Shown here in pieces: positions 35,685-51,304 of a DNA stretch of 64,000 nucleotides (positions are counted from its first letter, which is position 1; each line of letters starts with the position of its first letter). Where the stretch lies: positions 40,980-104,979 of the forward strand of contig JAIBBF010000005.1 of the NCBI GenBank assembly GCA_019694795.1, in the 5' to 3' direction. The notes under the pieces were generated by a model. It had not been told where the DNA came from. It made no database searches and saw nothing but the letters and a program-made list of their open reading frames with translations. This DNA is from Flavobacteriales bacterium (GTDB lineage Bacteria; Bacteroidota; Bacteroidia; Flavobacteriales_D; UBA2798). Position numbers and translations under genes: made by a program.

Positions 35685-36878
35685 TTAGGTGTGGAGGTGA
35701 ATACTTTCTTCAAGATAAGGGTGTTGTTTTGGAACCAATGCCGCTTTGGTTAAGGCAGTTAGTACACTGAAAATGAAAAGTGATCCCGTAAATACAAACA
35801 TGCCAATTTCTGGAAACCCAAATCCATATTCTTCACCAACAGCTCCAGGCATAGTCATAATGTAAACATCCAACCAATGACTAATAATTAGAATTACACC
35901 AATAATCCAGAGAAATACTGGTTTTCTTTTATTGTCTCTTGACATCAACATGAGCATTGGAAAAACGAAGTTTACTGCCATCATTCCCAAAAATAATTCG
36001 CGGTAATGATTGAATCTGGTCACATAGTATGTTACTTCTTCAGGGATGTCAGAATACCATATCAACATAAATTGAGAGAACCATAAATAGGACCACAAAA
36101 AACTTATCGCAAAAATCCATTTTCCTAAATCATGAAGGTGGTTGTCATTAACTTCAGATAGATGCCCTTCCCCCTTTAAATACAATACAAATAAGGTAAT
36201 GGCGATTGTTCCGGAAATCCATATTCCGGAAAATGTATACCAACCAAACAAGGTGCTAAACCAGTGAGTGTCAACCGACATTAACCAGTCCCAAGAAGAG
36301 GTAGATGATGTTACTGCGAAAAAGGCAATGAATAGCACGGAAAGAGTAATGTTTTTTTTGTGGTATGAAAATCCACCGTTCATGTCCTCTTCAAGTGATC
36401 TTTTTCTAAAGAGATGTCTGCAATAGTTCCATATTCCAAAATATAATAATGCTCTAATCCAAAAGAATGTTTGATTCAGGTAGGGTGTTTTGGCAGCAAT
36501 TATTTTATCATAATGTGTCGAATCAGGATTAGAAACTTCAGAGTCCATCCAATGGTAAACATGATGTAAGTGGAATGTGCCCGCAAGAAAGAAGATGATT
36601 AAAATCAGCGATCCAACTGGAAGGTAGGCAGATACTGCCTCAAAAACACGTTTTACTACAGTTCCCCATCCGGCTTGTGCTGCGTAATTGAGCGCAATGA
36701 AAAAGGTAGCTGCTAAGGCGATTCCAAAGAAAAAGTATCCTGACACTAATAAATTGGTCCAACTTCTTGCATGGTGATCGGTATGATCTGTAACAAATCC
36801 AATAATTGTGAGGATTAACCCTAGGAACATTAGACCAAGAAGAATGTTCTTTGTTTTGGATTGAAATGTAAATTCCAT
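35685..36878 (-). CDS. actF: Alternative complex III, quinol-binding membrane subunit ActF
   Basis: 397 residues with about ten membrane spans, homologous to ActC and the NrfD family. The pattern (NILLGLMFLGLILTIIGF at the N-terminus, then SYLWFSQFMLIWYSDIPEEV and the RFNHYRELFLGMMAVNF segment) is typical of ActF in Bacteroidota. In the complex it packs against ActC and helps carry protons. It is the last act gene in the usual A-F order and is followed after 3 bp by the Fnr-like regulator. No cytochrome oxidase genes follow, which is unusual. Confidence 0.92.
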   Translation of the reverse strand: MEFTFQSKTKNILLGLMFLGLILTIIGFVTDHTDHHARSWTNLLVSGYFFFGIALAATFFIALNYAAQAGWGTVVKRVFEAVSAYLPVGSLILIIFFLAGTFHLHHVYHWMDSEVSNPDSTHYDKIIAAKTPYLNQTFFWIRALLYFGIWNYCRHLFRKRSLEEDMNGGFSYHKKNITLSVLFIAFFAVTSSTSSWDWLMSVDTHWFSTLFGWYTFSGIWISGTIAITLFVLYLKGEGHLSEVNDNHLHDLGKWIFAISFLWSYLWFSQFMLIWYSDIPEEVTYYVTRFNHYRELFLGMMAVNFVFPMLMLMSRDNKRKPVFLWIIGVILIISHWLDVYIMTMPGAVGEEYGFGFPEIGMFVFTGSLFIFSVLTALTKAALVPKQHPYLEESIHLHT

Positions 36879-36886
36879 TTTCCTGT

Positions 36887-37480
36887 TTATTTGGTTTGTA
36901 ATTCTTTAATATATTGAATGATTTGCCAGCGTTCTTCCGGGTCAAGTTGAGAGGCGTGTGAGCCCATTAATCCTTTTCCATAGGTTATAGAAAAGAACAT
37001 TTTTCCTTCGGAAAGCTCTTTCAGTTGATTATTAAAGGATGGGATTGGGGGAAATAAATCCAATTTTACGATTTGTCCTTTTCCATCGCCTGTGGCTCCA
37101 TGACAATGACTGCAGAATGCTATAAACAAGACTTTCCCCTTTTCTTTGTTCATGTTGCTTTCAGGAAGTGGACTTTTTAGTTCTAATCCCGCTCGTTCAT
37201 ATTCAGCTGGATCGTTTTTGTAGTTAAATGGAACTTGATTTTGCGCTATTGACCCTGCCGGAGGTTTTCTTGCGCTTATACCATCTTTAAAAACTGAGGA
37301 AGCAGAATATGGTTTATAGCTCTGAGAGCGATACATGTCGGGCATATATTCATAACCCGGACTTTGATTTGACCTTGTACATGAACTCATTCCAAATGTT
37401 GCAATAGAGGCAAACATCAACATCTTGAATAAATTAGATGTCCTTATTTTAATATGCTTCGCGGATTTCATAAGCACCAT
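36887..37480 (-). CDS. actE: Alternative complex III, monohaem cytochrome c subunit ActE
   Basis: 197 residues with a lipobox (IATFGMSSC, Cys at about 33), so a lipid-anchored periplasmic protein. One haem site CSHCHG follows GKVLFIAFC at about residue 128, and a later Met (KGLMGSHASQL) is the likely sixth ligand. The N-terminal YEYMPDMYRSQSYKPY is a conserved ActE segment. It carries electrons from the ActA/ActB side to the acceptor. The gene overlaps actD by 32 bp if the ATG at 37,480 is used; a second ATG at 37,471 is possible. Confidence 0.92.
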   Translation of the reverse strand: MVLMKSAKHIKIRTSNLFKMLMFASIATFGMSSCTRSNQSPGYEYMPDMYRSQSYKPYSASSVFKDGISARKPPAGSIAQNQVPFNYKNDPAEYERAGLELKSPLPESNMNKEKGKVLFIAFCSHCHGATGDGKGQIVKLDLFPPIPSFNNQLKELSEGKMFFSITYGKGLMGSHASQLDPEERWQIIQYIKELQTK

Positions 37481-50357: not shown

Positions 50358-50377
50358 AACATTAAGTTTTAGATGGT

Positions 50378-51304
50378 TTAATTACTTGCTTTAGTTTGAC
50401 GGTCGTATATTTCTTGTTTGACCATTTTGTTTTTCTTGTTGAACCACACCAGTGCAATGATGACAATCAAGACCAGGAAAATTGAAAATCCTCCTACTAA
50501 CAGTGGGTCACCTTCTGCCGGATTGGTGTATAGGTCGGCTGCATCTACATTACCTAAGAATGCAGTTAAATAACTTATTTCCTCCTCGGTAAGCGGTTTG
50601 TCTTTATAGGCTTGGCCCATTGCGGGAAAAGGTGGTGCGGATAATATGGCTTTTATTCCCGGCTCTCCACCAAGTCTTGAATATGCTTTTGTAAGATCCT
50701 TTGCCAAAGTTCCTCCTGAAATCATATTTGGAGTACTTACATGATGACAAGTAATACAAGATGCACCTCCATTTTGAAGACGAATTGAGCCGTCGAAAAT
50801 GAGTCTCCCGTTTTCGGCCAAATTTACAGATGCCAAAGGTTCTTTTCTTTTGGGTGCTTCAGTAACAACAGGCTCTTCTGTGGTGTTTTCGGGTTTTACT
50901 TCTTTTGGAGCAGGTTCTCCTTTGCTGGCAATAAAAGTTAATATGGATTTGATTTGCGCATCAGACAAAGCTTGATCTGGCATTACCATTTTGTTGAATT
51001 CATTAAAAATGGCATTGGCATAAGCATCTCCTGACTTAACAACTGTTTGAGAACTTTTGATGAATTTAAGTAGCCAATCTTCCTTTCTTTTTGTGGTTAC
51101 CCCTTGCAAGTCTGGTCCAACAAGTTTTCCGTCTCCAACCGTGTGGCAGGCAGCGCAATTGGTTTTAAAAATTTCTTCGCCACTTTGCGAATGCGCTGTT
51201 TGAAATTGAAGAAATGCTCCTCCAATCAGTAGTACTTTAATGCCTTTTCGGGTTCCGTTTCCGAAAATCCAGGGCCATTCGGCTGGGTTTATTTTGATTT
51301 TCAT
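50378..51304 (-). CDS. Membrane-bound dihaem cytochrome c (NarC-like), first gene of the nar-act operon
   Basis: 308 residues. After an N-terminal hydrophobic signal, domain 1 (about 40-130) has CAACH and the likely Met ligand in MVMPDQ. A Pro/Glu-rich linker follows, then domain 2 (about 165-260) with CITCHH and FPAMGQAY. A C-terminal membrane helix (FSIFLVLIVIIALVWF) and a basic tail anchor it. The place directly before narGHJI and the dihaem layout recall NarC of Thermus. Domain 1 resembles the first domain of ActA in the same operon. An FNR-type box and a -7 element lie upstream. Confidence 0.88.
   Translation of the reverse strand: MKIKINPAEWPWIFGNGTRKGIKVLLIGGAFLQFQTAHSQSGEEIFKTNCAACHTVGDGKLVGPDLQGVTTKRKEDWLLKFIKSSQTVVKSGDAYANAIFNEFNKMVMPDQALSDAQIKSILTFIASKGEPAPKEVKPENTTEEPVVTEAPKRKEPLASVNLAENGRLIFDGSIRLQNGGASCITCHHVSTPNMISGGTLAKDLTKAYSRLGGEPGIKAILSAPPFPAMGQAYKDKPLTEEEISYLTAFLGNVDAADLYTNPAEGDPLLVGGFSIFLVLIVIIALVWFNKKNKMVKQEIYDRQTKASN

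Follow-up and report, generated by a model that had tools for sequence, protein, structure and literature searches.

Respiratory nitrate reductase, NarGHI, is the textbook nitrate reductase that bypasses complex III. In the DNA analysed here (hereafter the window: 64,000 nucleotides from a Flavobacteriales bacterium, assembly GCA_019694795.1, contig JAIBBF010000005.1, positions 40,980 to 104,979), a set of nar genes for such an enzyme is directly followed by a set of act genes for an alternative complex III (ACIII). What would an ACIII do there? Our leading answer, which we hold tentatively and as somewhat short of probable, is that this second, nitrate-associated ACIII oxidises menaquinol and hands the electrons via c-type haems to NarC and NarI, with nitrate replacing oxygen as the sink. 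It is favoured by the position of a full extra ACIII between narI and an FNR-like gene, with an oxidase-linked ACIII elsewhere in the genome, by the recurrence of act next after narI on several branches, and by the lack of any match above cut-off to NirS, NirK, nitric oxide (NO) reductase, NosZ or NrfA in this genome.

The coordinates and gene order given in a preliminary description of this DNA hold on re-measuring: narC-narG-narH-narJ-narI-actA-actB-actC-actD-actE-actF stand in this order on the minus strand, and no gap between neighbours exceeds 20 bp. The first gene, narC (50378..51304), encodes a NarC-like dihaem cytochrome c with two CxxCH motifs, a Cytochrom_C domain (PF00034) and, as judged by eye, a C-terminal hydrophobic helix that would anchor it in the membrane; its place ahead of narG is of the Thermus type, and a NarC-type match precedes narG in most nar loci examined. 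After 20 bp comes narG (46740..50357), whose product scores 1465.7 bits against TIGR01580 (cut-off 1084) and 1186 bits against E. coli NarG, with no Tat-type N-terminus seen by eye. The iron-sulfur subunit gene narH (45231..46721; PF13247, PF14711) lies 18 bp further on, followed after 8 bp by narJ (44494..45222), assigned as the assembly chaperone from its position and a match to TIGR00684 of 31.1 bits, under the cut-off of 59.4. Only 2 bp separate narJ from narI (43760..44491; PF02665), the gene of the dihaem b membrane subunit, which matches TIGR00351 at 124.7 bits (cut-off 105.6). With NarG and NarI over their cut-offs and four haem His in NarI, the predicted enzyme is a respiratory nitrate reductase of the NarGHI kind.

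The act genes begin 13 bp after narI. ActA (42499..43746) combines N-terminal monohaem and pentahaem domains with six CxxCH motifs, and its alignment to chain 6btm_A of a known ACIII spans both parts. The gene actB (39374..42487, 11 bp on) encodes the fused molybdopterin-like and Fe-S subunit, which is over the cut-off of TIGR04519 and matches 6btm_B at 767 bits; in its Fe-S part (residues 795-984), 15 Cys, presumably cluster ligands, are invariant in a 17-row alignment of close relatives. Next, after 12 bp, is actC (37979..39361) for an NrfD-type quinol subunit (PF03916; 805 bits against 6btm_C), then, after 2 bp, actD (37449..37976; PF11821, 191.3 bits), which overlaps actE (36887..37480), the gene of a monohaem cytochrome c with one CxxCH (PF13442). 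The second NrfD-type subunit is encoded 8 bp later by actF (35685..36878), which has no Pfam match and scores 352.8 bits against 6btm_F. The six-subunit set, with multihaem ActA, fused ActB, two NrfD-type proteins, ActD and monohaem ActE, is thus present in full. Variants of these subunits were seen at other loci: a 364-aa frame at L136 (4316-5410) fuses ActD and ActE, with PF11821 at its start and PF13442 at its end, and ActA frames at L153 (7446-9056, seven CxxCH), L169 and L170 apparently carry a second N-terminal NarC-like haem domain.

Domain annotation of the packed row revealed no cox genes, so that the earlier wording "without a terminal oxidase" stands for the operon; it fails for the genome (3.45 Mb in 124 contigs, 99.92% complete), which has a caa3-type oxidase with its own act operon and a cbb3 oxidase elsewhere. 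A search for further act operons, as the preliminary description had suggested, located this oxidase-linked one: contig C67 carries actA-E and contig C3 begins inside actF and continues with coxB and coxA, which we read as a single operon divided by a contig break. The actF on C3 is 58% identical to that of the window over 356 aligned columns, and the nar-linked and oxidase-linked ActB are 46% identical. NarG is single-copy. COX1 matches just twice in the genome, in the caa3-type gene and in a gene of CcoNO type that adjoins ccoP, and therefore no COX1-superfamily NO reductase was seen. NrfA, NosZ and NirS gave no match (NirBD and octahaem cytochromes were not searched for), and the sole NirK match, at 39 bits, is far under the cut-off of 296. 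The NosZ search gave no match in control genomes and did give one in a genome with a similar arrangement, G687, discussed below.

ACIII had been said to stand usually beside cytochrome oxidase genes, and among the named ActB loci listed this is borne out: Cox1 is close by in 65 of 80 and nar in none, the remaining 15 being short, cut off or without close Cox1. The nar-act arrangement is rare. The order of the organism was sampled with 399 genomes, 16 of which have a real NarG, including that of the window; the other 15 were examined, and act was beside narI in none of the 13 in which narI was reached (one, G158, has only 311 bases past narI). In a class-wide sample of 395 genomes, 44 have NarG at E <= 1e-100; G405 and G745 (46% identity) were left out, and among the 42 nar loci examined (narI lies beyond the contig in L135, and L114 has only 235 bases past narI) act follows narI in three, namely in the window's genome, in G687 (L125) and in G423 (L136). 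Of the 46 genomes that represent the order of G687, 43 match ActB at E <= 1e-250; inspection of nine loci, L125 and eight others, revealed the identical arrangement in G780 (L163), which belongs to the same genus. The other seven comprise five cox-linked loci, one contig end and one without cox within 3.8 kb past actF, and six further ActB from the class (50-55% identity) are cox-linked in five cases and cut off in one. In the window, L125, L136 and L163 alike, act is the gene right after narI; the narI-actA spacing is 307 bp in G687 and 310 bp in G780.

The trees place these joins on more than one branch on either side. In a FastTree of 130 ActB rows (39 of 119 other listed proteins, 89 rows from loci and the two copies of the genome itself), the window ActB falls in a fully supported 16-row clade with L125 and P0002-P0015; the clade holds no known oxidase-linked row, the genomic context of its 14 P rows being unknown. 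The oxidase-linked ActB of the same genome is placed apart, with Crocinitomix, Chryseobacterium and Cryomorphaceae records, and that of L136 takes a third place among Bacteroidales-type ActB. A 60-row IQ-TREE, with rows hand-chosen from 136, gives the same placements, and L163 joins L125. L136 is a long branch. Approximately unbiased (AU) tests, whose p values are optimistic because the groups were named once the first trees had been seen, reject three groupings: all four nar-linked ActB as a single clade (p 9e-05), the nar ActB clade together with L136 (p 0.009) and the nar-linked with the cox-linked ActB of the window's genome (p 4e-06). The ActB phylogeny that had been suggested as a check therefore separates the nar-linked copy from the oxidase-linked one, and a copying of the oxidase-linked operon into the nar row is rejected. 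In the NarG tree (52 rows, after six partial or broken ones of 58 were dropped), act-bearing clusters occupy three places; a clade of the window with L125 and L163 is rejected (p 4e-59), as is one of all four (p 1e-04). Nar-act joins are thus spread over three branches of the NarG tree and two of the ActB tree. With the act-bearing clusters in three places and joint clades rejected, three changes of the nar-act trait are the minimum for NarG, a count that does not separate gains from losses.

In the proposed mechanism, menaquinol would be oxidised at ActC/ActB and its electrons would enter the ActA haems; ActE or the mobile ActA haem would carry them to NarC and on to haem b of NarI, from which they would cross the membrane to NarGH for nitrate reduction in the cytoplasm. 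The ACIII would add charge translocation on top of the redox loop of NarI. Since NarI probably still oxidises menaquinol by itself, ACIII would offer the electrons another way in, one with a higher energy yield. An FNR-type regulator and a weak FNR-box-like site suggest that nar and act would be expressed jointly without oxygen.

A c-type haem in contact with NarI is a recurring design: among 49 nar loci in which the NarI frame could be read, 13 encode a fusion of NarI with a monohaem domain at its N-terminus (fusion proteins of 465-510 aa; L091, L093-L099, L101-L103, L105 and L128), and a monohaem NarC-like protein is encoded within 21 bp after narI in three of the 49. The N-terminal haem domain of ActA is related to the monohaem domain of these fusions. 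Its presence on ActA was considered as a nar-specific trait and rejected, as the domain is also found in 6btm_A and in the oxidase-linked ActA of the same genome. For NarC-likeness over other ActA domains, the mobile domain of the window ActA ranks first of 93.

Related systems lend the proposal its parts. In the ACIII-aa3 supercomplex of Flavobacterium johnsoniae (6BTM), which has related subunits, a mobile sixth ActA haem has been proposed as the electron shuttle to aa3 (PMC8552683); its partner is a cytochrome oxidase, whereas the partner encoded beside the window's ACIII, known here from genes, is Nar. A like idea exists for Streptomyces coelicolor Nar1 (PMC7931247): this NarGHI depends on and co-purifies with bcc-aa3, and the proposal there is that complex III feeds it through c-type haems, from QcrC to haem b of NarI, for four instead of two protons per pair. 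It differs in that the complex is bcc and not ACIII and in that the evidence comes from co-purification and mutants, not from gene order. In Thermus, the narCGHJIKT operon likewise has narC first and then narGHJI, although act is not among its genes as listed (PMC7694296). NarC and NarI of Thermus interact in two-hybrid assays, and an outward electron bridge was proposed there (PMC7694296), so that electrons may flow between NarC and NarI in either direction. Finally, a similar cluster of nar and act-like genes has already been published under another interpretation. In metagenome-assembled genomes of Planctomycetota and KSB1, 13 instances of Nar genes lie upstream of a six-gene cluster, as in the window. 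Its products are a multihaem cytochrome, a protein that fuses Fe-S and molybdopterin parts, NrfD, ActD, a cytochrome of monohaem type (ccoP) and quinone-binding subunit 2 (PMC10732223). From this published gene list we infer that the cluster probably encodes an ACIII; these are other phyla, and in the sections of the paper at hand the authors did not speak of ACIII; they suggested either a respiratory complex or a nitrite reductase resembling NrfAH (PMC10732223). A literature search, with most subscription papers outside its reach, turned up no description of nar-act in Bacteroidota that we recognised. Act operons that serve periplasmic acceptors are described as not clustered with oxidase genes (PMC9386147).

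The genes around the row place the window's act genes in a typical nar neighbourhood. The packed minus-strand row extends past actF to a gene for an FNR-like Crp/Fnr regulator 3 bp on (34938..35681; PF00027 and PF13545, the best NCBIfam model being Fnr, below its cut-off) and, after a further 3 bp, to a HemN-like radical SAM gene (33573..34934; TIGR00538, 204 bits, under the cut-off of 325). This overlaps a proline dehydrogenase gene (32384..33589; PF01619), which ends the row; 160 bp then separate it from a ribonucleotide reductase gene (29659-32223). On the other side, 183 bp lie between narC and nadB, and NadA/NadB and molybdenum cofactor genes occupy 51488-59666, so that the flanks are like a small neighbourhood for anaerobic life. 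A comparison of 57 nar loci (961 kb) with 66 control ActB loci (1504 kb) was made. Relatives near the nar loci comprise FNR-like genes (21), ribonucleotide reductase (8), MoeA (8), MoeB (7), MoaE (7), MoaC (6), TauE (5), NadA (3), NadB (3), proline dehydrogenase (2) and MobA (1), and NarK, with a query from L136 that is itself counted, is near 22 of the 57. The control loci yielded a single FNR-like gene and none of the other relatives, ribonucleotide reductase, MoeA and NarK included. It is this recurrence near nar, and hardly near control ActB loci, that makes the neighbourhood typical. Besides the HemN-like protein of the row, a HemN over the cut-off is encoded on contig C4 (L008 2113-3501). 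Further off in the window, a 2097-aa minus-strand frame (15662-21955) contains a 14-base word that repeats 1167 bp apart.

From residue 12 on, the FNR-like protein can be aligned to chains of the FNR type, and its Cys lie at residues 14, 17, 26, 63 and 116; we liken these Cys to the cluster ligands of E. coli FNR, which suggests that the protein may carry an oxygen-sensing cluster. Nine FNR-box-like sites with at most one mismatch occur in the window, and the one ahead of narC (51377..51390, minus strand, one mismatch, 72 bp upstream) supports joint regulation weakly. At up to two mismatches, 92 sites compare with a shuffle mean of 85.5, a count that 25 of 100 shuffles reach; with sites about as frequent as in shuffles, the box was dropped as firm evidence. 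Promoter matches, in a scan confined to the sigma-70 type, number 45 against 54.7 in shuffles, without excess.

Several observations weigh against an ACIII devoted to nitrate. The first concern NarI. In 50 aligned sequences, there is no variation at the four haem His of E. coli, which we take to be haem ligands, or at Gly65 and Arg112, and the Lys86 of E. coli, presumably part of the quinol-binding site, is replaced by Arg in all. As haem His and quinol-site residues are kept, NarI probably still oxidises menaquinol by itself, in line with its earlier designation as the enzyme's own quinol-oxidising subunit, and ACIII would not be the exclusive source of electrons. No position in this alignment is specific to nar-act (one residue in all four and in at most 10% of the others), and the idea of an ACIII-adapted NarI with a special docking face was given up. 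The likeness of the mobile ActA domain to NarC is also too weak to serve as proof of co-adaptation, the oxidase-linked L158 being nearly level with the window. Both the caa3 and the cbb3 oxidase could accept electrons, and NarG is absent from the one genus mate and the one family mate sampled.

Joint expression is open to similar objections. A perfect 12-bp inverted repeat with a T-rich stretch downstream lies in the signal-peptide region at the 5' end of actA (43676..43700, minus strand), with a z of -4.8 for the 36 nt picked around it and -2.0 for 151 nt; a hairpin here may uncouple or attenuate expression between nar and act. The 307 bp of G687 contain a terminator-like hairpin with a stretch of T residues (z -3.9 for the 71 nt picked around it), and since it lies between them, nar and act are probably separate units in that genome. 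G687 and G780 each have one ActB match at E <= 1e-250, which is the nar-linked copy; given this single strong match and the hairpin, their ACIII is probably general and not for nitrate only. In G687, the caa3-type genes (L150) stand without act, and a second ActB match, counted at E <= 0.001 with its position not located, may indicate a second, distant ACIII. Lastly, the stretches examined at L125, L136 and L163 showed none of the genes that flank nar and act in the window, not even the FNR-like one, so that a neighbour of this kind is no constant feature of nar-act.

In the strongest rival, possible though on the whole doubtful, the ACIII encoded beside nar serves at low oxygen and feeds cbb3 (or caa3) through cytochrome c; it would share no more than its regulation with Nar, which would receive no electrons from it. 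The cbb3 genes in the genome, the prevalence of Cox1 beside the listed ActB and a NarI that looks capable of quinol oxidation alone all speak for it. However, the genome already has an oxidase-linked ACIII, the packed row contains no oxidase gene, and act is joined to nar on several branches, each time right after narI; in L136, a NarK-like gene follows actF (TIGR00886, 265.5 bits, cut-off 311.7), which puts act between narI and narK.

The preliminary description had offered later denitrification steps as another destination, with ACIII supplying periplasmic reductases of nitrite, NO and N2O. Support comes from G687, where matches to a NirS-type protein (376 bits) and to NosZ (122 bits) were obtained, along with what may be a NorCB pair, a COX1-family protein beside a monohaem cytochrome that no NO-reductase model matched. 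The genome of the window itself, nearly complete, lacks a match to NirS, NosZ, NrfA or an NO reductase and has NirK only far below cut-off; such steps are rejected as its electron sink, within the enzymes searched for, and we consider this explanation unlikely. The NirS-type (Cytochrom_D1) gene of G687, at L161 on contig C32, lies near a cytochrome b protein with Fe-S domains and a cox1/cox2-like pair.

We regard as equally improbable that NarC draws electrons out of NarI and that ACIII and NarC work side by side, both delivering to one pool of periplasmic cytochromes. The precedent is Thermus, where NarC is described as a likely electron bridge to Nir and Nor under repression of complex III (PMC7694296), but the search for periplasmic acceptors in the window's genome found the oxidases and no other, and in that role NarC would make a second ACIII superfluous. 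A chance insertion of act behind narI is very improbable: the rarity of nar-act and the lack of NarG in the one genus mate and the one family mate sampled fit it, but all six ACIII subunits are present and the join recurs at the same place on several NarG and ActB branches and also in Planctomycetota and KSB1 (PMC10732223).

The reading of a nitrate-associated ACIII can be taken one step further, with the confidence due to a speculative proposal that may well not hold: a nitrate respirasome in which the mobile haem domain of ACIII makes the contact with NarCGHI, with two coupling sites instead of one, built several times by the placing of act behind narI. If NarGHI does receive a feed from ACIII, nitrate respiration would move more charge per electron pair, and the cell would gain more energy when air runs out. 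The question raised by Streptomyces Nar1, of whether complex III drives NarI or not, would become testable in a compact operon, and the nar and act-like clusters of Planctomycetota and KSB1 could be given a function.

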